Assembly (NCBI RefSeq): GCF_029760915.1
Contig: NZ_CP121685.1
Coordinates: 2,082,001 to 2,146,000, forward strand
Source: Olleya sp. YS
GTDB lineage: Bacteria; Bacteroidota; Bacteroidia; Flavobacteriales; Flavobacteriaceae
Reading direction: 5' to 3'
Length of the DNA stretch: 64,000 nucleotides
Shown here one piece after another: positions 4,012-57,401 of the stretch. Within the stretch, counting starts at the first letter, position 1. The number at the start of each line of letters is the position of its first letter. The notes under the pieces are model-generated. The model searched no databases. It was not told the origin of the DNA and saw only the letters and a list, made by a program, of their open reading frames with translations. Made by a program: the position numbers and the translations under genes.

Positions 4012-4050
4012 ACTAATTACTTTGAAAAAAGGAATCTCATTATAATAATT

Positions 4051-4082
4051 AAAAAAGCACAATTTTAGAATTGTGCTTTTTT
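4051..4082 (+). terminator. Rho-independent terminator after the E2 gene
   Basis: AAAAAAGCACAATT and AATTGTGCTTTTTT pair perfectly over 14 bp around a 4-nt loop and end in a T run. The A run on the left arm lets it work for minus-strand transcripts from cassette 1 as well. Confidence 0.9.
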
Positions 4083-4249
4083 ATATCTTAAATTTTAGTT
4101 TTTGGAGTTTCGTTTAACGGTCTCGGCTAAGAGTAGATGGGTGGCTAAGCATTTAACTTTGCAAGTACACACCAAGCTGAAAATCTGCGAGGATTTTCAG
4201 AAGTAGGCGAGAACAAGCAATTGCTTATAGCCAATGTTGTGCATAGTTT

Positions 4250-4921
4250 TTATTCATTCCACAGTCGATTCATATAATCTTTATCAGAATCATTTGTAAT
4301 AAAATATGTCCAATTTGATTCATCCGCAATTAAAAAATTAAATGTAACGAACTCTTTCTTGTTTCCGTTTTCGAATACTTTTAATTTATACTGATAAGTC
4401 GGGTGAAATATTGAGTCCAAAATTCCATCTCGATAGTCAGAAACTTTGCTTTTATTCCAGTCTTTTATAAATCGTTCAGTTTTAATTCGGTTGAGTTTTT
4501 TTGTTTTGTTTGGGTCAATTCTAGAAACTATTATAATTGAGTCAACTTTTTGTATTTCAATTTTAGTCTTTTGAGATTTAAATTCCGTTATTTTTTTATC
4601 ACATACATTAATTATCAAATATTGTCCATTTTTGGGCTCAAATCGAATGTTACAAGAGTCAAATTTATAACCGCTACTTGCAATAAATTCTCCGTTCTTT
4701 TTCAAGTCAAGAGGATAGTAATGTGGTCCAGCCCAACCAAGACATTTATTTTCAATTATTTCATATTCATTGATTGTCCAAGTGTAACTTATTTCGCAGT
4801 CAGCTCCATAAGCCTCTCCAAATAAATTAAGTGCTTTTTTCGAAATGAAAAATCCTCCAATTAGTATTATTCCAAATACAATTGATAAAATTATTAATGT
4901 TTTTTTACAACCTTGATTCAT
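4250..4921 (-). CDS. Uncharacterised membrane-anchored protein (cargo of cassette 1)
   Basis: A 223-residue protein of no recognised family. Residues 8-28 form one hydrophobic segment (TLIILSIVFGIILIGGFFIS) after a short positively charged start, so it is probably a single-pass protein with a large extracytoplasmic domain. Five cysteines in the exported part could form disulfides (in YGADCEIS, NKCLGWAG, DSCNIRF and NVCDKK, plus Cys5 before the helix). The gene stands alone in its own element, with its own promoter and 5'-UTR hairpin. Its orientation is opposite to the E2 gene. The closest true homologues and function are unknown. Confidence 0.75.
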   Translation of the reverse strand: MNQGCKKTLIILSIVFGIILIGGFFISKKALNLFGEAYGADCEISYTWTINEYEIIENKCLGWAGPHYYPLDLKKNGEFIASSGYKFDSCNIRFEPKNGQYLIINVCDKKITEFKSQKTKIEIQKVDSIIIVSRIDPNKTKKLNRIKTERFIKDWNKSKVSDYRDGILDSIFHPTYQYKLKVFENGNKKEFVTFNFLIADESNWTYFITNDSDKDYMNRLWNE

Positions 4922-4982
4922 TTAAATTATGCACAATGTCTCTGATAAAAAATCGTTTTAATGTTTTTTATCAATCGTTAAA

Positions 4983-5014
4983 CGAAGTTAGTTGATTTTT
5001 TTAACTAAGTCAAG
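4983..5014 (-). promoter_or_regulatory. Cassette promoter module, copy 1
   Basis: Read on the minus strand: CTTGACTTAGTT, an A-rich tract, then TAACTTCG. The first T of TTGAC (5013) is 23 nt from the first T of TAACTTCG (4990). This resembles the Bacteroidota layout TTTG-N17-23-TAnnTTTG. The TAACTTCG box runs into the terminal repeat TTCGTTTAACG. Confidence 0.6.
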
Positions 5015-5020
5015 GTAAGA

Positions 5021-17024: not shown

Positions 17025-17170
17025 GGTTTTGTGTGAAGGTCTAGTATATGATTTCGTTGCGTGTTTAAGTAAGTATTAATTAAGCAAATAACACATAAAT
17101 ATTAAGCCCAAGTGGACTTTCGTAAGTAGGCTCTAAGTAGCAATGAATTATTCAAATCTTAACCTAGCAT

Positions 17171-17842
17171 TTATTGAAAATCCGATGAGCTAATTATAAT
17201 TTCATATTCATAAGGTTCAGTTGTGTCATTTATCGGAATTTCAATATAATGATTTAAAAATGGACTTGAATTTCCAATTCGAAAATTAATTTCATTAACC
17301 ACGTTTTTGTCAATCCAAATTCGTCTTATTGAATTTTGAGTTGAAGGTGGTATTGGGTCGATTAGTCTTTCAGGAAATTGTTTGTATACATTTATTTCTT
17401 GAGTTATTTCATCGGTAGCTATAACTTTTAAATCTACAGGATATAGTCTCAAACCCTCAAAATTCAGTTCTTCTTGGTTTCCAATACTTTCGTCTTGAAT
17501 AAATTCGACCAAATTCGGTATGTGCACTTGTTCATTAAAGTCAAGTTGAATTTGATATTTATTTCCATTTCCAGTCGTGTTAAATGGTAAATTGTAATCT
17601 CCATTTATGTCAGTTGTAGTCGAATCTATAAAACCTTTAAATATGTAATTCGTTCCAGCAAATGTTGCTTGCGTGCTATATTCCGCTAATTTTATTTTCT
17701 CATTTACTATTGGAATATCATTAGTTGAATCATAAACTTTCCCAAACACTAAAGTTTCAATGTCAGCTGGAATTGGATCTTCTTCACAACTTACAATTAG
17801 AAGCGAAAAACAAGTTAAAATATAAATCAAATTTTTCTTCAT
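17171..17842 (-). CDS. Uncharacterised lipoprotein with carboxypeptidase-regulatory-like domain (cargo of cassette 2)
   Basis: A 223-residue protein with a lipobox (CFSLLIVSC, Cys19) followed by EEDP. Residues about 30-100 look like a beta-sandwich of the carboxypeptidase-regulatory type: VFGKVYDSTNDIPIVNEKI, then DINGDYNLPF. The remainder is beta-rich and unknown. It is likely an envelope lipoprotein. It shares no similarity with the cargo of element 1, although the flanks are alike. Confidence 0.75.
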   Translation of the reverse strand: MKKNLIYILTCFSLLIVSCEEDPIPADIETLVFGKVYDSTNDIPIVNEKIKLAEYSTQATFAGTNYIFKGFIDSTTTDINGDYNLPFNTTGNGNKYQIQLDFNEQVHIPNLVEFIQDESIGNQEELNFEGLRLYPVDLKVIATDEITQEINVYKQFPERLIDPIPPSTQNSIRRIWIDKNVVNEINFRIGNSSPFLNHYIEIPINDTTEPYEYEIIISSSDFQ

Positions 17843-17912
17843 AGATTAGGTTTATATTATGCACAACGTATATATATTGCGAGTTTTCAATATAACTATA
17901 TCGAGTATGTAA

Positions 17913-17944
17913 CGAAGATAGCCGAAAAAAACAACAAAGTCAAG
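17913..17944 (-). promoter_or_regulatory. Cassette promoter module, copy 2
   Basis: On the minus strand: CTTGACTTTGTTG, a T run, then TATCTTCG. The distance between the first T of TTGAC (17943) and the first T of TATCTTCG (17920) is 23 nt, identical to copy 1. Confidence 0.6.
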
Positions 17945-18050
17945 TACCTAAAATTAATACAACCTATCAATTTTCAGGTTTACAACCACAAAAACAATTT
18001 GAGTATTAAGCCTAAAAAAGTATATTTACAAAAACTTAACAAATCATAAA

Positions 18051-29080: not shown

Positions 29081-29088
29081 TATAATTT

Positions 29089-29178
29089 GGGCGTTACCAC
29101 AAGGGTCGCGTCTTACGTTATATCTTTTTTTGCCATATATGGCAGCAAAAAAAGGATGCCACTACAACCGCTAACGCA
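29089..29178. repeat. Dispersed ~90-bp repeat with central hairpin
   Basis: A GC-richer block between guaA and the LysM gene begins GGGCGTTACCACAAGGGTCG and ends in CTAACGCA. GCGTTA near the left end (29091-29096) is inverted as TAACGC at the right (29172-29177). In the middle, CTTTTTTTGC and GCAAAAAAAG flank an inner stem around CATATATG. The block is not part of a credible gene. From general knowledge it resembles the GGGCGTT...AACGC elements scattered through flavobacterial genomes; this was not searched. Confidence 0.6.
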
Positions 29179-29200
29179 TTTTGAAACGTATAAACAACAT

Positions 29201-31150
29201 ATGAGAAAATTAATATACATTTTATCACTAGTCGTCGTATTCGGCTGTGCTTCCGCGAAAGCGCAAAACTACAAAACCCATAAAGTAAAAGCAGGTGAAA
29301 CCATAGAGCAAATTGCTACTAGATATAACGTTTCAAAATCTCAGATTTATGCACTAAATCCAGATGCCAGAAAAGAAATTAAACCAAATTCGGTGTTAAT
29401 TATTCCAAAGGAAAATACAGTTGCAACTACCTCACCTAGTACCAAAATTACCCGAATACTAGATGGTTTTAAAACGCATAAAGTAAGACGTAAAGAAACT
29501 CTTTACAGTTTATCAAAAAAATATGATGTTAAGCAAGAGGATATCAAAAAGCACAACCCACAATTATACGCTAATAATTTACGTAAAGGCGATAAAATAA
29601 AAATCCCTATTTACAAAACGATAACAGAACAGGTTGTGGTAAAACCAACTACTAAAACCTACACAGTCAAGCCAAAAGAAGGTAAATGGCGTATTGCGTA
29701 TCAATACGGAATTACAGTTCAAGAGTTAGAAGATTTGAACCCAAATATGGCTGAGGTCTTACAACCAGGTGACGTTGTTAATGTGCCTAATTTAGATAAG
29801 GAAGACGTAAAGCAAATAGATGAGCAATACAGTTATTACACTGTTTTACCAGCAGAAGGATTTTACAGATTAAAACTTAAAACTGGATTAACCCAAGAAC
29901 AATTAGAGCAATTAAATCCTGGATTAGAAACAACTGGTTTAAAAGAAGGTATGGTATTAAAAATCCCGTTTAATGCTACATTAACTGGTCAAAACTCTGA
30001 GATTGAAGGAGGTTTGGTCTCAGGTGACACAATCACTACTTCAGATTTATCAACCAGAATTTCAGATAGAAGTACTAAGCATATTGCTATTATGTTGCCT
30101 TTCAAGCTAAATAAAATTGATTCAGATTCTATATACGATGCAAAACAATTAATTAGAACTGACCCTTACATAAGTACGTCTTTAGATTTTTACTCAGGTG
30201 TTAAAATTGCATTAGATAGCTTAGCGTCTTTAGGAATTAATTTAAAAGTAGATGTATACGATACAGAAAACAGAGAGAGTAGAGTTGCATCTTTAGTGCG
30301 TTCTAATACTTTTGATGATGTCGATGTTGTTATTGGGCCTGTTATGCCAAAATTATTCAATACAGCAGCAGCAGCTTTAAAAAGTAAAAATATTCCGTTA
30401 GTATCACCAATTACTAAAACAGTAAATTTAGGCGATAATGTATTTCAATCTAGACCAGCAGAAAAACTGCTTAAAGATAAAATTGTAAACTATTTTAAAA
30501 CAGATAGCACCTCGCACTTTATTATTGTCTCAGACATGAAAAATAAAGCAACTTCAGATTTACTCAAAAGAACATTTCCTAAAGCCTCTGTGGTGATGTC
30601 AAGAAAAGTAGCTAAAACAGGTGCTGATGCCTATTACATTTTAGATCAAGATATAGTTAATGTTCTGAAACCAGGTAAAAACGTCGTGTTTTTAGAGACT
30701 GCCAACGCTGGATTTGTGTCCAATGTGTCTAGTATATTAAATTCTAAAATTGATGCTACAACATCAGTAATTTTAGCAACAACAGATAAAACTAAAGCTT
30801 TTGAGGATGATGAGGTTAGAAACACCCATTTATCTAATTTAAGTTTTACCTATGCATCCATCAACAAATCGTTTAGCGAGGACGAAAGTAACAGCTTTAA
30901 TAAACGTTATATGGCTTTATACAAAGAGTCGCCTAACCCATACGCTGTAAGAGGATTTGATTTAACAATGGATGTGGTATTACGTTTAGTGACCTCAGAA
31001 GACTTATACCTTTCTGTTAACGAGTCGCCACTAACCAGTTATGTAGAAAATAAATTTGCATACAAAAAGAAATTGTTTGGTGGTTATTATAACGATACGG
31101 TATATTTAGTCAAGTACCAAGATTTAAAAATTGTTGAGATAAAACAATAA
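29201..31150 (+). CDS. LysM-repeat protein with periplasmic-binding-protein-like C-terminal domain
   Basis: A 649-residue protein with a signal peptide (LIYILSLVVVFGCASAKAQ) when started at ATG 29201. A longer reading from TTG 29087 runs through the dispersed repeat and is rejected. Four LysM repeats follow (HKVKAGETIEQIATRYNVS; HKVRRKETLYSLSKKYDVK; YTVKPKEGKWRIAYQYGI; YYTVLPAEGFYRLKLKTGL), then a PBP1-like ligand-binding domain (HIAIMLPFKLNKIDSD, DVVIGPVMPKLF). LysM binds peptidoglycan. A PBP1-fold domain recalls the LpoA class of peptidoglycan synthase activators, but this link is inference. The signal-peptide end (ASAKA) is encoded by a short repeat sequence at 29251-29263. Confidence 0.88.
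   Translation: MRKLIYILSLVVVFGCASAKAQNYKTHKVKAGETIEQIATRYNVSKSQIYALNPDARKEIKPNSVLIIPKENTVATTSPSTKITRILDGFKTHKVRRKETLYSLSKKYDVKQEDIKKHNPQLYANNLRKGDKIKIPIYKTITEQVVVKPTTKTYTVKPKEGKWRIAYQYGITVQELEDLNPNMAEVLQPGDVVNVPNLDKEDVKQIDEQYSYYTVLPAEGFYRLKLKTGLTQEQLEQLNPGLETTGLKEGMVLKIPFNATLTGQNSEIEGGLVSGDTITTSDLSTRISDRSTKHIAIMLPFKLNKIDSDSIYDAKQLIRTDPYISTSLDFYSGVKIALDSLASLGINLKVDVYDTENRESRVASLVRSNTFDDVDVVIGPVMPKLFNTAAAALKSKNIPLVSPITKTVNLGDNVFQSRPAEKLLKDKIVNYFKTDSTSHFIIVSDMKNKATSDLLKRTFPKASVVMSRKVAKTGADAYYILDQDIVNVLKPGKNVVFLETANAGFVSNVSSILNSKIDATTSVILATTDKTKAFEDDEVRNTHLSNLSFTYASINKSFSEDESNSFNKRYMALYKESPNPYAVRGFDLTMDVVLRLVTSEDLYLSVNESPLTSYVENKFAYKKKLFGGYYNDTVYLVKYQDLKIVEIKQ
29251..29263 (-). repeat. Short GC-rich repeat copy inside the LysM gene
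   Basis: The complement of CGCTTTCGCGGAA is read here in frame and encodes the ASAKA end of the signal peptide. It is identical to the 13-mer at 2309-2321. Confidence 0.5.
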
Positions 31151-41216: not shown

Positions 41217-41289
41217 CTTCGACAAGCTCAGACTGACAAAGAATTATATGAGTAATTCATTCATCAATCTCACACTGAGTTTGTCGAAG
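41217..41289. repeat. Paired REP-like palindromes (CTTCGACAAGCTCAG type)
   Basis: CTTCGACAAGCTCAG at 41217-41231 and its near complement CTGAGTTTGTCGAAG at 41275-41289 face each other across 43 bp. Flanking TGACA and TCACA also mirror each other. This is the short palindromic repeat type found in many Bacteroidota genomes, here as an inverted pair in a 92-bp intergenic space. A single half copy lies at 53801-53821. Confidence 0.75.
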
Positions 41290-41306
41290 TGTTTATAAAA
41301 TAAAAT

Positions 41307-48515: not shown

Positions 48516-48660
48516 TGAGATTTTAAAGTTTTGTTTAATGGTTTTGTGTATAGTTAGTTGTGTTGGCTAGAACTAAATAAGTAAAAGAAAACCCGTCCAT
48601 TTTTCTGAGTACAAACAGATACAGCAATTAATTGTGACACGTTGTTGGACATAGTGTTTT

Positions 48661-49431
48661 TTATCTTTTAAATATTCCGTTTTGGTCAATGAAGCCAACT
48701 AATTGTTTAATCTCTAATGGTTTGCTCCAGTTTCTGTGAATCATTCTATGGCAGTTTGAGCAAACTGGAACTAAATTTTGTAAAGCTTTATCCAGAGTTT
48801 TCTCCAAATCCTCATCTTGAAATTGAAAAATAGGTTTTTCGTGATGAATTTCTATGAAACCTTTTCCGTGTTCTCCGTAAAAATTTTCAAAGTCAAATGT
48901 ACAACAATTACAAGCTATGTGACCATCTTTAGTGAAATGTTCGATAGCATAATTTCTTAATTTAGTTGAACGTTCATAAACTTTTACTTTTGCTACTTTT
49001 TTAACTCCTTCTTGAATTATAATATTTTCATCAAATGTTAATCGTTTTCTTTCTCCTTTTTCTATTTCTTTTAAATTATCTTTAATGTCAGAATAGTCAA
49101 AATCATTTGTGAGTAAGTATCTTAATTCAGCTTTATGGTCTTTTAAATACTGTTTTCCTTTGTTTGTTATATATAGCGGACTTCCAGCTTTTGATTCACG
49201 TTCAATAAACCCATTTTTAACGAAAGGTCTTTTACTTGCTGTTAGATTTCTGACAATTTGAGAAAAATAATCGTCATTTCTATTTGCTAAAATAACTAAA
49301 TCGTCTCCTGATGGTTTTAAAATATCTCTTAATAAACTTGATAATTCAGAGGTATTTATCTTTCCGTTTTTTAAGCTTATTAAATATAATGCAGGAAGCC
49401 TTAAATCTCCTTCGTAAATTCTTTCGCTCAT
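48661..49431 (-). CDS. HNH restriction endonuclease (putative)
   Basis: A 256-residue protein. Residues 160-250 contain an HNH nuclease: [20 protein letters not shown], then [11 protein letters not shown] and a second CxxC in [13 protein letters not shown], which together give the Cys4 zinc site and the H-N-H active centre. The N-terminal ~150 residues look like a winged-helix-rich DNA-recognition part ([19 protein letters not shown]). Its start codon directly follows the stop of the methyltransferase gene on the same strand, as expected for a type II restriction partner. The recognition site is unknown. Confidence 0.83.
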
Positions 49432-50631
49432 TTAGTAGTTTGTTATTAATAAATGTTCAGTTTCTTTATTATTTCTATTCATAAAACTTACTAAATAAGT
49501 TTTGTCAAATGTTGAAATTTTAATCTCAGGATGTGTATATAAATCTAAAATAAAATCTGTGTTTTTTATTATCATCATCCATTTTGCTCTGCACTTTTTA
49601 ATTAAAAAGTCAGCAAGTCTTTTTTGGTCAGATTTAACAAAATCGTTTTGAGCATATGTGCTAAATTCTGTGTCATATGGTGGATCTAAAAAGATAAAAT
49701 CATCTTCTGTTGGCTGAAAAAGATTAAAAAATTCTTGAAAATCCGCATTTACAATATTTGTTTTTGATAACAATTCTTGTAATGGCTCTGATTTTAAATA
49801 ATCAATTTTCTTTCTGAAATTTTTATTGTTATATGCAATTCCACCATAAGGAACATTAAATTCGCCTCTTGAATTGTAGCGAAACATACCTGAATAAGCG
49901 TAATTACGAATAAATAAAAATATTGCTGTGTAAAACGCTTGGTTTAGTTCATACTTTTTGTGAAAGTTATAAATATGTCTGAAATGCATATAAAATGCAC
50001 TTTTTAAAGCAGTTTCTATATTATCTAAAATATCTTTGTCTGGAAGTTTACCTTTTTCTTTTTCAAGAACTTTCATTCTTGAAGTTTTTCGAACTAAATT
50101 TTTCTTTATTTCTTTTAAGAAATTTTCAATATTGAAGTTGAAATAAGAAGAAAAAAGCCCGTTGAACTCTTTAGAGTTTTTTAAGATAAACTCATAAATT
50201 TTATTTGACAAAATATCTTTGGATATTATGTCGCATGCAAAATCTTTATAGATTTTTATAAAAAAACTTTGATTTTTTTCTGAAATGTTTCCTAAAACTT
50301 CCCAATTGTGAATTATTTCATCAATTGCTTTGAAAAACATCTCCCTTTCGTCCGAAACTATGATTTTATATAAATCAATTAATTCGTGTGCTTTATCATT
50401 TATGAAATATTCTTTTGCTTGAATTGCGGTATAAACTGAACCTCCACCAACAAAAGGCTCGAAATAATTTTCAAAATAGTCAGGAAGATTTGGAATGATA
50501 TATTTTAATTCCTGTTCCTTTCCACCAGCCCATTTTACAAGTGGTTCAAGTCTTCGCTCTTTTGTGTAATTAGCAAAACTTAAATTGATTTGATTATACG
50601 TTACTACTGGTTCTTCAACAATTGTATTCAT
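49432..50631 (-). CDS. D12-class N6-adenine DNA methyltransferase
   Basis: A 399-residue protein with the Dam/DpnM class pattern: PLVKWAGGKEQELKYI (motif X), FEPFVGGGSVYTAI (SAM-binding motif I), YFINDKAHELI, FRYNSRGEFNVPYGG, and the catalytic DPPY in FIFLDPPYDTEF (motif IV). It is about 100 residues longer than classical Dam enzymes. With the HNH gene directly downstream it makes a type II restriction-modification pair in which the modifying enzyme is transcribed first. No controller protein is seen. Confidence 0.9.
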   Translation of the reverse strand: MNTIVEEPVVTYNQINLSFANYTKERRLEPLVKWAGGKEQELKYIIPNLPDYFENYFEPFVGGGSVYTAIQAKEYFINDKAHELIDLYKIIVSDEREMFFKAIDEIIHNWEVLGNISEKNQSFFIKIYKDFACDIISKDILSNKIYEFILKNSKEFNGLFSSYFNFNIENFLKEIKKNLVRKTSRMKVLEKEKGKLPDKDILDNIETALKSAFYMHFRHIYNFHKKYELNQAFYTAIFLFIRNYAYSGMFRYNSRGEFNVPYGGIAYNNKNFRKKIDYLKSEPLQELLSKTNIVNADFQEFFNLFQPTEDDFIFLDPPYDTEFSTYAQNDFVKSDQKRLADFLIKKCRAKWMMIIKNTDFILDLYTHPEIKISTFDKTYLVSFMNRNNKETEHLLITNY

Positions 50632-50717
50632 AACGTAAATTTAAAATTTTTATATTTCGGTTTAAACAAATTTCAATGAATTTTACAGTTTTTGTTCACA
50701 TTTGTGTACAACTTATA

Positions 50718-50788
50718 TGATATAAACCATATATTAATATTTTATATCAGTCGTTAAACGAAGTTAGACGTTTTTTTTACAAAGTCAA
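50718..50788 (-). promoter_or_regulatory. Cassette promoter module and 5'-UTR inverted repeat, copy 3
   Basis: Minus strand: TTGACTTTGT, an A run and TAACTTCG (50759-50766); the distance between first T of each box is 22 nt. Downstream, TGATATAAA and TTTATATCA form a perfect 9-bp inverted repeat (50741-50749 with 50718-50726) in the region that would be transcribed. Confidence 0.6.
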
Positions 50789-50792
50789 GTTA

Positions 50793-53779: not shown

Positions 53780-53800
53780 GCTACTAATTAACAAGAAAAT

Positions 53801-53821
53801 GTCACACTAAGCTTGTCGAAG
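53801..53821. repeat. Half copy of REP-like palindrome
   Basis: The sequence ending in AAGCTTGTCGAAG, with GTCACACT before it, is the right-hand arm of the repeat type seen at 41270-41289. It is in the short gap between the putative anti-sigma and DUF4097-like genes. Confidence 0.6.
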
Positions 53822-53843
53822 TGTCTAAAAAAAACTAAAAAAG

Positions 53844-55352
53844 ATGAAAACTATATATCTAAATTTAATTTTATTACTAGTAACCGTAAGTGTTACTGCA
53901 CAACAAAAGTTAAGCAAAATAGACCAATCTGTAAGAGCTAACAAAGATGTTACTGTAGATTTAAATACCAGTCACACTAATATTATTGTAGAAACTTGGA
54001 ATAAAGATTACATAGAAGTTGAAGCTTATATCGAAAGCAAAAAACTAACTAAAGAACAACTACAAAAAGCAATAGACAATTGGGATGTCACCCTTACAGG
54101 AGATTCTGATTACGTAACAATTACTTCAAAAGGAGCAAGAGGTATCTGGTCTGATGATTTGAGCGTCACTATTTTAGATGAAGCATCTATTGAGGCTTTG
54201 GCAAATCTACCTGAAACATTAGAACTCAACCTAGAGCCTGTATTAAAAAGTTTAGAAAACTTGGAAGTATTGGGCGAGTTGCCAGAAAAATTAAAGTTGT
54301 TAAACCTTCCAAAGTCACCAGACGGTAATTATAATATCGATTTTGATTACGATAGATATAAAAAAGAAGGCGAATCCTATTTAAACTCCTGGAGTAAAAA
54401 ATACAGAACAGAGTATGGTGAAGCCTATGAAAAAGAAATGCGCGAATGGGCAAAAAGCATCAATCAGGAAGACCTTGACCAGTTTGAAAAAGATATGGAA
54501 GAATGGGGAAAGCAGTTAGGTAAAAAAATGGAGGAAGCTTTTGGTGAAGACTTTGAAAAAAGTATGGAAGAATGGGGAGAAAACTTTGGTAAAAAAATGG
54601 AGGAAGCTTTTGGCGAAGACTTTGAAAAACGAATGGAAGCTTTTGGAGAACGTCTAGAAAAAGAGTTAGTACCTAAATTAGAAGAACTAGAAAAACGTTT
54701 TGAAGCTGAATTTAATGAAGATGGAAAAAAAACAACCAAAAAAAGCGGTAAGTTGTTTGAAGATATAGATTATAACACCACAAAAACCATCATTATAAAA
54801 ATGCCAAAAAAGGCGAAGCTAAAACTTAACGTTAGACATGGCGAGTTAAAACTAGCCAACGTGTTAGAAAACACCAAAGGAGATATCTCTCATGGATCAT
54901 TAATAGCTAATCACATTACTGGAGGTAACACCTCCATTAATGTGTCTTATGCTAAAGTGGCTGTAAAAGATTGGATGTCTGGTGAGTTGAAGTTAAAATA
55001 TGTGGATGATGCCATTATCGCTAATGCCAATAACTTAATACTTAATGCAGTGTCTTCAGATATTGAAATTAATACGCTTTCTGGAAACTCAGTTATTAAC
55101 GGAAGCTTTGGCGATTTATTAATCAATACCATAGCTTCAGATTTTAGTAATTTAAATATTATTTTAGAAAACAGTGATGCCAAATTAAACTTGCCAAATA
55201 CAGATTACAATCTGTTTTATAGTGGTAACAAATCTAAATTCAACAATGTAAGTACCTCAAATAAAACCATAAAACACTACCCAAACAATAATAGTAATAC
55301 TAGCAAAACTATTGTGATTAATGCCAAATTTAGTACTGTAGTTGCTAAATAA
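53844..55352 (+). CDS. Exported DUF4097-like protein with internal charged repeats
   Basis: A 502-residue protein with a signal peptide (LILLLVTVSVTAQ). Its N-terminal and C-terminal parts are beta-rich, and the C-terminus (LKLNVRHGELKLANVLENTK, DISHGSLIANHITGGNTSIN) matches the beta-helical DUF4097 adhesin pattern. Between them, residues about 190-290 are an Glu/Lys/Trp/Phe-rich alpha-helical region that contains a 23-residue repeat (EEWGKQLGKKMEEAFGEDFE, then its near copy). The repeat DNA is at 54495-54632. It is the third gene of the ECF sigma operon and a plausible target of that sigma factor's signalling. Confidence 0.72.
   Translation: MKTIYLNLILLLVTVSVTAQQKLSKIDQSVRANKDVTVDLNTSHTNIIVETWNKDYIEVEAYIESKKLTKEQLQKAIDNWDVTLTGDSDYVTITSKGARGIWSDDLSVTILDEASIEALANLPETLELNLEPVLKSLENLEVLGELPEKLKLLNLPKSPDGNYNIDFDYDRYKKEGESYLNSWSKKYRTEYGEAYEKEMREWAKSINQEDLDQFEKDMEEWGKQLGKKMEEAFGEDFEKSMEEWGENFGKKMEEAFGEDFEKRMEAFGERLEKELVPKLEELEKRFEAEFNEDGKKTTKKSGKLFEDIDYNTTKTIIIKMPKKAKLKLNVRHGELKLANVLENTKGDISHGSLIANHITGGNTSINVSYAKVAVKDWMSGELKLKYVDDAIIANANNLILNAVSSDIEINTLSGNSVINGSFGDLLINTIASDFSNLNIILENSDAKLNLPNTDYNLFYSGNKSKFNNVSTSNKTIKHYPNNNSNTSKTIVINAKFSTVVAK
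54495..54632 (+). repeat. Tandem 69-bp coding repeat
   Basis: Two 69-bp units (54495-54563 and 54564-54632) encode near-identical 23-residue blocks starting MEEWG. A shortened third block (MEAFGERLEKEL) starts at 54633. Both nucleotide and protein levels are conserved, suggesting recent duplication. Confidence 0.8.
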
Positions 55353-56109: not shown

Positions 56110-57270
56110 TTAATTATACATGTTATTGGGTTTTAAGTTTTTGAAAAAAATTAATGCTTTATTTAGCTTATTTTTTATTTCAGAGTTTGGTTTATTTAAA
56201 ATCCAGTTTTCGATTCCATGAAAACTTTCCACAGGAAAAACTATTCCGTAATCATTTTTCCAATTATCCAATGCTAACTCTAGATTTAAATCTTTGTCAA
56301 TTAATATTTTGTTATAAATTCCATACATTTCAAAAACACTCATAGCATCTTTATTTTCTGAAAATTTATTTTTAAAAATTTTGACTAGTTTTTTGTCAAA
56401 ACTTTCATCATTTACGATGTTTTCCTCAAAGAGGTTTGTATAAATAAAACAATTTTCTGGATTAGCTTTAATACCTTTTTTATAATACTCTACAGCTTTC
56501 TGATGATGATTTAATTGACCACTAGAAATGCCAGCATTATTATATGCTTGGTCATTTAAAGGATTAATATAAATAATTCTATCAAAAGCTTCAATAGCTT
56601 TCAAATGTTGTTTGTTTATATCGTAAATAGTTCCTAAATGCTTTAAAGCTACTTCAAAATTTTTATCTAATTCAGTTGCTTTTTCTAATGCAATAATAGA
56701 AGATTCAACATCTCCAGATTTAAATTTGTACAAACCAATATATGCCCAATCATTCGGAGTTCTTTTTGAAGGTTTAGTTGTCAATGCATTATTAGAATAT
56801 TGTTCTATCATATCCCAATCCCTTTTGGTGTACTGAAATAATGCTTTTTTTCCAATCATGAAAATAGATTCTTGATGGCGATACTGAAACTCAAGACGTT
56901 TAAGAATAGATTTAGCCTCATCTCTTGTTTTCTTGTATTTTTTCCAAATGTGATGAGGTTTATTATAAAGAAATGCAAAAGCAGCAAAAGCTGCTAGCAT
57001 CAGAGCAAAAGCAGCACTTATAATTTGTATAATTGTTGTCTGACTGTCTTTGTAAAATTCTCTTTGAGACTCATTATTCTTTTCAAGATTAGAAATACTT
57101 TCTTCGAGAACAGCAATTCGAGTATTTAATTTATTTGTATTGTCTTTATATGTTTTTAGTTCGTTTTTTAGGCTTTTTAAATTATTTGATTTTATACTAT
57201 CCGTTTCATTTTGTGTGAAACCTATACCTATATTTATAATTAAAAAAAACTTAATAATTTGATGTTTCAT
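56110..57270 (-). CDS. TPR-repeat membrane protein with cassette promoter
   Basis: A 386-residue protein. A signal peptide (FFLIINIGIGFTQ) is followed by a coiled coil (about residues 28-70, NLKSLKNELKTYKDNTNKL) and a membrane segment (IIQIISAAFALMLAAFAAFAFLYN). The C-terminal part has TPR units (DWAYIGLYKFKSGDVESSIIALEKA, NNAGISSGQLNHHQKAVEYY) and an unknown region at the end. TPRs hold protein partners together. Its promoter (57366-57396) has the same module as cassettes 1-3, but no 3' cassette module is visible in the 31 bp before the M23 gene. Confidence 0.75.
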   Translation of the reverse strand: MKHQIIKFFLIINIGIGFTQNETDSIKSNNLKSLKNELKTYKDNTNKLNTRIAVLEESISNLEKNNESQREFYKDSQTTIIQIISAAFALMLAAFAAFAFLYNKPHHIWKKYKKTRDEAKSILKRLEFQYRHQESIFMIGKKALFQYTKRDWDMIEQYSNNALTTKPSKRTPNDWAYIGLYKFKSGDVESSIIALEKATELDKNFEVALKHLGTIYDINKQHLKAIEAFDRIIYINPLNDQAYNNAGISSGQLNHHQKAVEYYKKGIKANPENCFIYTNLFEENIVNDESFDKKLVKIFKNKFSENKDAMSVFEMYGIYNKILIDKDLNLELALDNWKNDYGIVFPVESFHGIENWILNKPNSEIKNKLNKALIFFKNLKPNNMYN

Positions 57271-57365
57271 GATTATAATTAAATTACTTGAAATATTGTA
57301 TAAATTTGTACTACGATGTTCTCGAAATAAAATTTATAACACTCTCATACATTATGGTAACCAAA

Positions 57366-57396
57366 CGAAGTTAGCCTAAAAATTTCACAAATTCAA
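57366..57396 (-). promoter_or_regulatory. Cassette-type promoter module, copy 4
   Basis: Minus strand: TTGAATTTGTG, an AT-rich spacer and TAACTTCG (57366-57373), followed by GTTTGG. The distance from first T of TTGA to first T of TAACTTCG is 23 nt, as in copies 1 and 2. The inner repeat TATGCACAA seen in cassettes 1 and 2 is absent. Confidence 0.5.
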
Positions 57397-57401
57397 ATAA
57401 C

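Follow-up and report, generated by a model that had tools for sequence, protein, structure and literature searches.

The 64-kb stretch of Olleya sp. YS DNA analysed here (the window) contains three units, E1, E2 and E3, all read from the minus strand, in which cargo genes lie between a 5′ and a 3′ flanking module. Both flanks are common to E1 and E3, and E2 carries the same flanks in decayed form; the initial annotation had listed two further units with the modules of E1, and both are borne out. A direct check of the sequence likewise finds the repeats described for E1 exact and in place: an outer inverted repeat (TTCGTTTAACG, 4109-4119, and CGTTAAACGAA, 4976-4986), an inner one (TTGTGCATA, 4237-4245, and TATGCACAA, 4928-4936) and, between outer and inner repeats, a hairpin (TGATAAAAAA..TTTTTTATCA). 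In E1 and E3 the 5′ module runs from a promoter-like stretch (TTGAC..TAACTTCG), which we take to be of the Bacteroidota promoter type, through TTCGTTTAACG and the hairpin to GTT; the 3′ module is ∼130 nt long. Two models were used in the searches described below: R1, a covariance model for the 3′ flank to which E1, E2 and E3 themselves contributed, and R2, a model of the 5′ flank.

The 5′ module of E1, here called its promoter slot, occupies 4927-5015 (R2, 100.9 bits) and was aligned with 12 other Olleya sp. YS copies. It holds the TTGAC..TAACTTCG stretch, the outer core TTCGTTTAACG (4976-4986) and the hairpin, with the junction at the inner core. The gene cassette of E1 would span 4118-4936, from the TT of the inner core to the G of the 3′ core; these putative junctions match an empty slot in the congener G009, and the complementarity score of the cassette's own ends is 22. 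A 223-aa ORF (4250-4921) without a Pfam match forms the cargo, and an attC-like site (R1, 117.1 bits) lies at 4107-4236. In E2, the core ends of the decayed slot (17857-17945; R2, 60.2 bits) are no longer complementary. The E2 cargo, also a 223-aa ORF (17171-17842), has a lipoprotein-like start by eye and no Pfam match, and the attC-like site (17026-17159; R1, 111.3 bits) has a decayed core. The E3 slot (50702-50790; R2, 86.0 bits) lies immediately 3′ of meaB. The E3 cassette (48539-50711, putative junctions) encodes a D12-class adenine methylase of 399 aa (49432-50631; PF02086, 113 bits) and an HNH nuclease-like protein of 256 aa (48661-49431; PF01844, 20.9 bits, just below the cut-off of 21.4), and the attC-like site is at 48528-48643 (R1, 81.8 bits).

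Rfam has no match to E1, E2 or E3 at the gathering threshold, and a known structured RNA was rejected as their identity on this ground. The only Rfam match in the window is a Flavo-1 RNA (RF01705; 29100-29180, minus strand, 46.5 bits), which lies antisense over the start of the ORF at 29087-31150. A weak slot match at 57307-57398 on the minus strand (28.4 bits, E 0.018), 3′ of a terminator and 5′ of the ORF at 56110-57270, is perhaps a decayed slot. Elsewhere in the window, the ORF at 53844-55352 contains two tandem 69-base repeats, 86% alike (54476-54613).

The three units of the initial annotation are a small fraction of the family. Across the 3.0-Mb Olleya sp. YS genome, R1 matches 33 places at E≤0.1, 30 of them at E≤0.001, and R2 matches 20, of which 18 are at E≤0.001. 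A 16-base piece of the 5′ module occurs with up to two mismatches at 15 genomic places, compared with five for a reversed control, and the rest of the module follows at 12 of these 15, each time before a different gene. All but one of 30 sites in this genome sit 3′ of an ORF of at least 104 aa, at a distance of 7-37 nt or in slight overlap. Pfam matches were obtained for 11 of 26 scanned cargo proteins (PIN, PLD, DUF1877, TonB_C, RHS, HNH, SUKH, FRG, ASCH, Rieske and HD). By eye, hairpin-plus-T-run terminators of neighbouring genes adjoin many units, among them the slots at L007, L008, L010, L016, L018, L020, L022 and L023 and at window 4040-4085.

Some 3′ modules of the genome stand in tandem without a 5′ module. 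R1 delineates arrays of five modules at 2041.0-2045.3 kb (the outermost weak, E 0.013), three at 2259.5-2261.3 kb (the outermost weak, E 0.047) and two at 513.5-514.4 kb. Their anatomy is GTTnnnnnnATT, an ORF, AACnnnnnnAAC, a hairpin and then the GTT of the next cassette. Nine array fragments from congeners contain 62 such sites (61 distinct, as two fragments overlap), on one strand throughout and with no 5′ module. These are tandem cassettes, mostly of one ORF and on one strand, as in integrons. The Olleya sp. YS arrays also have the two or more attC sites and the lack of a nearby integrase that define a CALIN, with sites that are attC-like by our own tests rather than IntegronFinder's. The 62 promoterless sites further indicate that what had been described as one cassette bringing its own promoter consists of two separate parts, a cassette and a promoter slot.

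Cassette ends and the attC-like hairpin

The inner repeat pair is the cassette's own R′/R″ core (GTT.../...AAC). Pairing of these ends was scored in 58 array cassettes bounded on both sides, drawn from 78 sites: 56 of the 62 in the congener fragments, 13 of 17 in a second set and nine further array sites. Weak sites skipped in this set can mis-pair neighbours, which lowers the own score. Own ends nonetheless scored 18.6, compared with 11.6 (sd 3.1) for other ends, and none of 5000 permutations reached the own score (maximum 13.2). A cassette's own start was a better partner than the start of the next cassette in 46 cases, tied in five and was worse in seven; it was the single best partner in 20 of the 58. 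Similarly, the own ends of 12 solitary elements scored 17.3, compared with 11.1 for other ends (0 of 5000 permutations, highest 17.2), and were the best partner in eight of the 12. Weak own-end scores were seen in E2 (8), L020 (8) and E3 (12). L018, which lacks a 3′ module, was omitted from this comparison and from the end-folding below, and L016 was too divergent for one comparison of copies.

The hairpin was examined in 65 sites from a wider collection of loci (see below). A main stem of GTGTATAATTAATTGC with GCAACTAACCATACAC (three mismatches), together with an inner hairpin, leaves 94.2% of cells paired, and this fraction drops to 32-52% when the stem is shifted along the alignment. Both sides have changed in 14 of 21 pairs (148 cells), a covariation score reached by none of 500 shuffles. 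The R1 search model did not include the main stem, and the 65-site alignment was fitted to R1. In most of 12 copies examined, the joined ends fold into a closed multibranch RNA. The cores are thus cassette-specific and complementary, with the GTT and AAC of integron cassettes, and covariation supports the imperfect, foldable palindrome that characterizes attC. By this comparative evidence the 3′ flank is an attC-like hairpin.

Promoter slots and their occupants across the genus

In solitary elements, the outer repeats are likewise complementary even where they vary, for example TTCGAATCTAGTAGAAC and GTTCTACTAGGTTCGAA in L079, and likewise in L080, L062, L022 and L024. We read the 5′ module as a putative att site with a promoter, split by the cassette at G|TT (or A|TT). 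If so, empty slots should run from the hairpin straight into TTAAACGAA. A slot of this form (L118; ...TATCAGAGAAATTAAACGAA...) occurs in G009. Its flanks are orthologous to those of the filled L025 of Olleya sp. YS: the left flanks are 79% identical over 1041 bp and the right flanks 83% identical over 2304 columns. On the left, L025 itself is ∼0.8 kb longer; this extra sequence includes a decayed core (GTTAAGCGAAACT) and repeats ∼31 bp of the right flank in direct orientation, which hints at a former unit at this place. L075 of Olleya sp. YS is a weaker candidate for an empty slot.

The E3 locus provides a second comparison. E3 is flanked by meaB and an epimerase gene, which in G002 and G005 are separated by a gap of only ∼100 bp; a search of this gap found neither site nor slot. 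The sister genome G001, whose MeaB is 97% identical, has the same slot after meaB followed by other cassettes (two R1 sites), and the HNH and methylase genes of E3 have no match at that locus. At the meaB locus of G004, a cassette is present together with a different start motif (GTTGTTATATAACCA|GTTG). The slot of G007 is weak there (34 bits), and in G009 a remnant can be recognized only by eye. E1 offers no clean empty-site comparison: the sister genome has a different gene order, and none of the relatives' loci compared includes dinB. The empty-site check proposed in the initial annotation thus yields an empty slot in one congener and the absence of E3 in two. These empty and swapped loci sustain its view of a non-autonomous cassette family with exchangeable cargo and contradict the alternative it had set against that view, namely that the flanks are merely a promoter type of core genes. 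Judged from these alignments, the outer repeats and promoter are a separate slot, which persists while the cassette differs or is absent.

Slots also occur in rows. In L147 of G005, copies of a slot block (up to 292 bp, 95-96% identical) alternate with three cargo ORFs of 157, 527 and 237 aa that share no similarity with one another. The block holds a terminator and an apparent copy of the end of the neighbouring gene. It starts with GTTAAACGAA and stops at the slot junction and therefore has the form of a cassette. This alternation of slot blocks and cassettes in tandem, with cassette-like ends, suggests that slots are promoter cassettes in their own right. Slot rows are also found in G006 and G003.

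Two further features concern slots and array starts. The slot hairpin loops of L020, L022, L024 and L025 contain a ∼23-base insert resembling CACTTGTACTGAGCTTGTCGAAGT, and a similar palindrome recurs at window 41266-41300 and 53798-53832. By eye, a different type of start site (AAAAGTTGTCATAAC..GTTGTTATATAACnA|GTTG) opens the arrays L056, L058 and L155; it is perhaps attI-like.

The array-linked tyrosine recombinase and its distribution

Olleya sp. YS encodes five PF00589 proteins, two XerC/XerD-like and three others (424-441 aa, 56-74 bits). The recombinase type linked to arrays in other genomes was not found among the PF00589 genes of the whole genome, nor was a classical IntI above cut-off, in keeping with the earlier suggestion that movement, if any, comes from elsewhere. 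All nine congeners have a further PF00589 recombinase (123-145 bits), with a frame of 380-418 aa in seven and a short one in G004 and G006. Sites lie downstream of it on the same strand in seven of the nine; the contig ends there in L113 and L115. The nearest site follows the recombinase stop by 0.3 to 6 kb (∼340 bp in L111, ∼530 bp in L112 and ∼6 kb in L114). G005 has an additional, broken recombinase copy preceding its second array.

A wider collection contributed 80 recombinase loci. R1 sites number 65, spread over 24 of these loci; every one lies downstream of the integrase gene on its strand, and the upstream sequence, up to 6 kb, contains none. The remaining 56 loci have no R1 site; 17 of these have at least 2 kb downstream. 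Site-bearing loci include those of Algibacter, Hanstruepera, Aurantibacter, Winogradskyella, Psychroserpens, Lutibacter and Polaribacter. One (L231) is from a MAG titled Rhodobacteraceae, which is perhaps misbinned.

The array-linked enzyme differs from classical IntI in sequence. Two catalytic motifs are separated by 65 residues in all seven genus enzymes and all 24 site-linked enzymes, compared with 107 in 13 of 13 IntI and 73 in the XerC-like protein of Olleya sp. YS. The ∼42-residue insertion of all 13 classical IntI is thus missing, an insertion that PMC8138268 calls essential for integron function. In a tree of 13 of 15 IntI loci (two were missed), the 24 site-linked enzymes and 16 chosen others of the 80 loci, all IntI fall into a single clade (100/100), which has a long branch and excludes the flavobacterial enzymes; deep forks are weak. 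The enzymes score 202-231 bits with NCBIfam NF040815, which NCBI titles 'site-specific tyrosine recombinase/integron integrase' (above the cut-off of 220 in three of five), and 196-203 bits with the IntI model TIGR02249 (cut-off 265, match in two stretches). A predicted structure (pLDDT 83.4, pTM 0.57) best matches XerA and the IntI 2a3v, and XerA is the top PDB match by sequence and by fold.

R1 sites are present in all ten genus genomes (14-66 each) and in 156 of 199 Flavobacteriaceae genomes (155 of 198 genera), where apparently no more than 17 sites were scored per genome, which makes the per-genome counts lower bounds. Candidate relatives also come from viral contigs. Of 296 genomes of the phylum, 84 have a classical IntI above cut-off, and one of these is marked as the same class; most genomes without a match are unlisted, so no same-class denominator is given. 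For Bacteroidetes, the IntegronFinder 2 paper reports a single complete integron, that of Salinibacter ruber, after integrase-only elements had been reported before (PMC9024848), and Bacteroidota appear among phyla with integrons in a review (PMC8618304). Our search found no literature on integrons of Flavobacteriaceae, most subscription journals being outside its coverage, and matches of the motif letters in published papers look like chance. The novelty of the system is accordingly provisional.

Interpretation and relation to known systems

The units are very probably gene cassettes of the integron type that occupy promoter slots dispersed round the chromosome, to judge from their ends, hairpins and orthologous loci. 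By sequence comparison, each cassette starts at the TT of a GTTnnnnnn core, usually contains one ORF and ends in nnnnnnAAC with the attC-like hairpin. The array-linked recombinase would act on folded attC-like sites at G|TT and move cassettes between arrays and slots; the slot promoter would then express the captured gene, many array cassettes serving as a store. Loss of the recombinase from Olleya sp. YS would leave its cassettes fixed unless the enzyme is supplied in trans. The evidence for movement consists of the empty and swapped sites. Several observations count against this reading: the missing IntI insertion, the lack of the recombinase in this genome, the 56 of 80 loci without sites, the 6 kb before the first site of L114, the weak own ends of E2, L020 and E3, the seven of 58 array cassettes that pair better with the next start, and the lack of a clean empty-site test for E1.

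Other explanations fit parts of these data. A regulon, in which a promoter and mRNA-end type is shared by ordinary core genes without mobility, would account for a promoter-like 5′ module that precedes many unrelated genes. Against it stand the meaB locus, where the whole element is missing before the epimerase gene in two congeners and other genes take its place in a third, the existence of an empty slot, and core ends that are specific to each cassette. The empty and swapped loci contradict the regulon, and we give it next to no credence. We regard as equally implausible a non-autonomous transposon of the usual type, with terminal inverted repeats and dependent on a transposase. It would explain dispersed copies with nested inverted repeats at both ends, but here the end letters vary between copies yet stay complementary, and one-strand tandem arrays lie downstream of a tyrosine recombinase; L025 does carry a ∼31-bp direct repeat of its flank, a possible target duplication. 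Slightly less improbable, though still very unlikely, is that the nested stems are maintained because of their role in the mRNA, as a structured 5′/3′ end closing over the gene, with mobility secondary. The multibranch folding of joined ends is as expected from this, but array cassettes without a slot keep the R′/R″ pairing, and Rfam offers no counterpart at the gathering threshold.

The strongest of the alternatives, itself unlikely, holds that the cassettes are integron-like but that a different enzyme, for instance host XerC/XerD, moves them, the array-linked gene being a mere neighbour. Olleya sp. YS indeed has cassettes and XerC/XerD-like genes without an array-type recombinase. This recombinase is, however, the upstream neighbour of sites in 24 wider loci, in a single orientation, and in seven of nine congeners. 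We lean towards a broader proposal, that most Flavobacteriaceae genera carry a second, overlooked integron lineage in which an insertion-free integrase may recombine folded attC sites and feed both slots and arrays. If true, captured genes would be expressed at many chromosomal addresses at once, another answer to the problem of expressing them. Such a lineage would make it possible to ask, in a natural setting, which features an integrase requires for recombining folded DNA, and it would hold a large store of cassette genes without assigned function. Slots may also account for some of the turnover of genes that adjoin core genes in Flavobacteriaceae.

The initial annotation knew of no described name for the element, whose anatomy is that of integron gene cassettes. 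Sedentary chromosomal integrons (IntI, attI and attC cassettes) likewise have tandem single-ORF cassettes on one strand, cassette-specific R′/R″ cores with GTT and AAC, an imperfect hairpin after the stop codon and a tyrosine recombinase at the array start. In contrast to IntI, the enzyme described here lacks the insertion (65 rather than 107 residues), falls below the IntI cut-off, has an extra ∼100 N-terminal residues and points the same way as its array; dispersed promoter slots are a further difference. Because the cassette features are those of integrons and the enzyme lacks the IntI-specific insertion, we read the system as a putative variant of the integron in which the integrase is divergent, promoter slots are dispersed and recombination is deduced from sequence. 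The Olleya sp. YS arrays of two to five sites without a fitting integrase resemble CALINs, from which the system differs in its single cassettes in promoter slots and in sites judged attC-like without IntegronFinder's model. IntI integrons also place cassettes at genomic attG sites outside the array. The single cassettes here are similar, but they follow a promoter module of common type that has complementary cores of its own. Finally, XerA-type proteins (NF040815) are the best family match of the array-linked recombinase, which departs from them in its extra N-terminal domain, its array linkage and its SPLD-like end, which resembles IntI ends.
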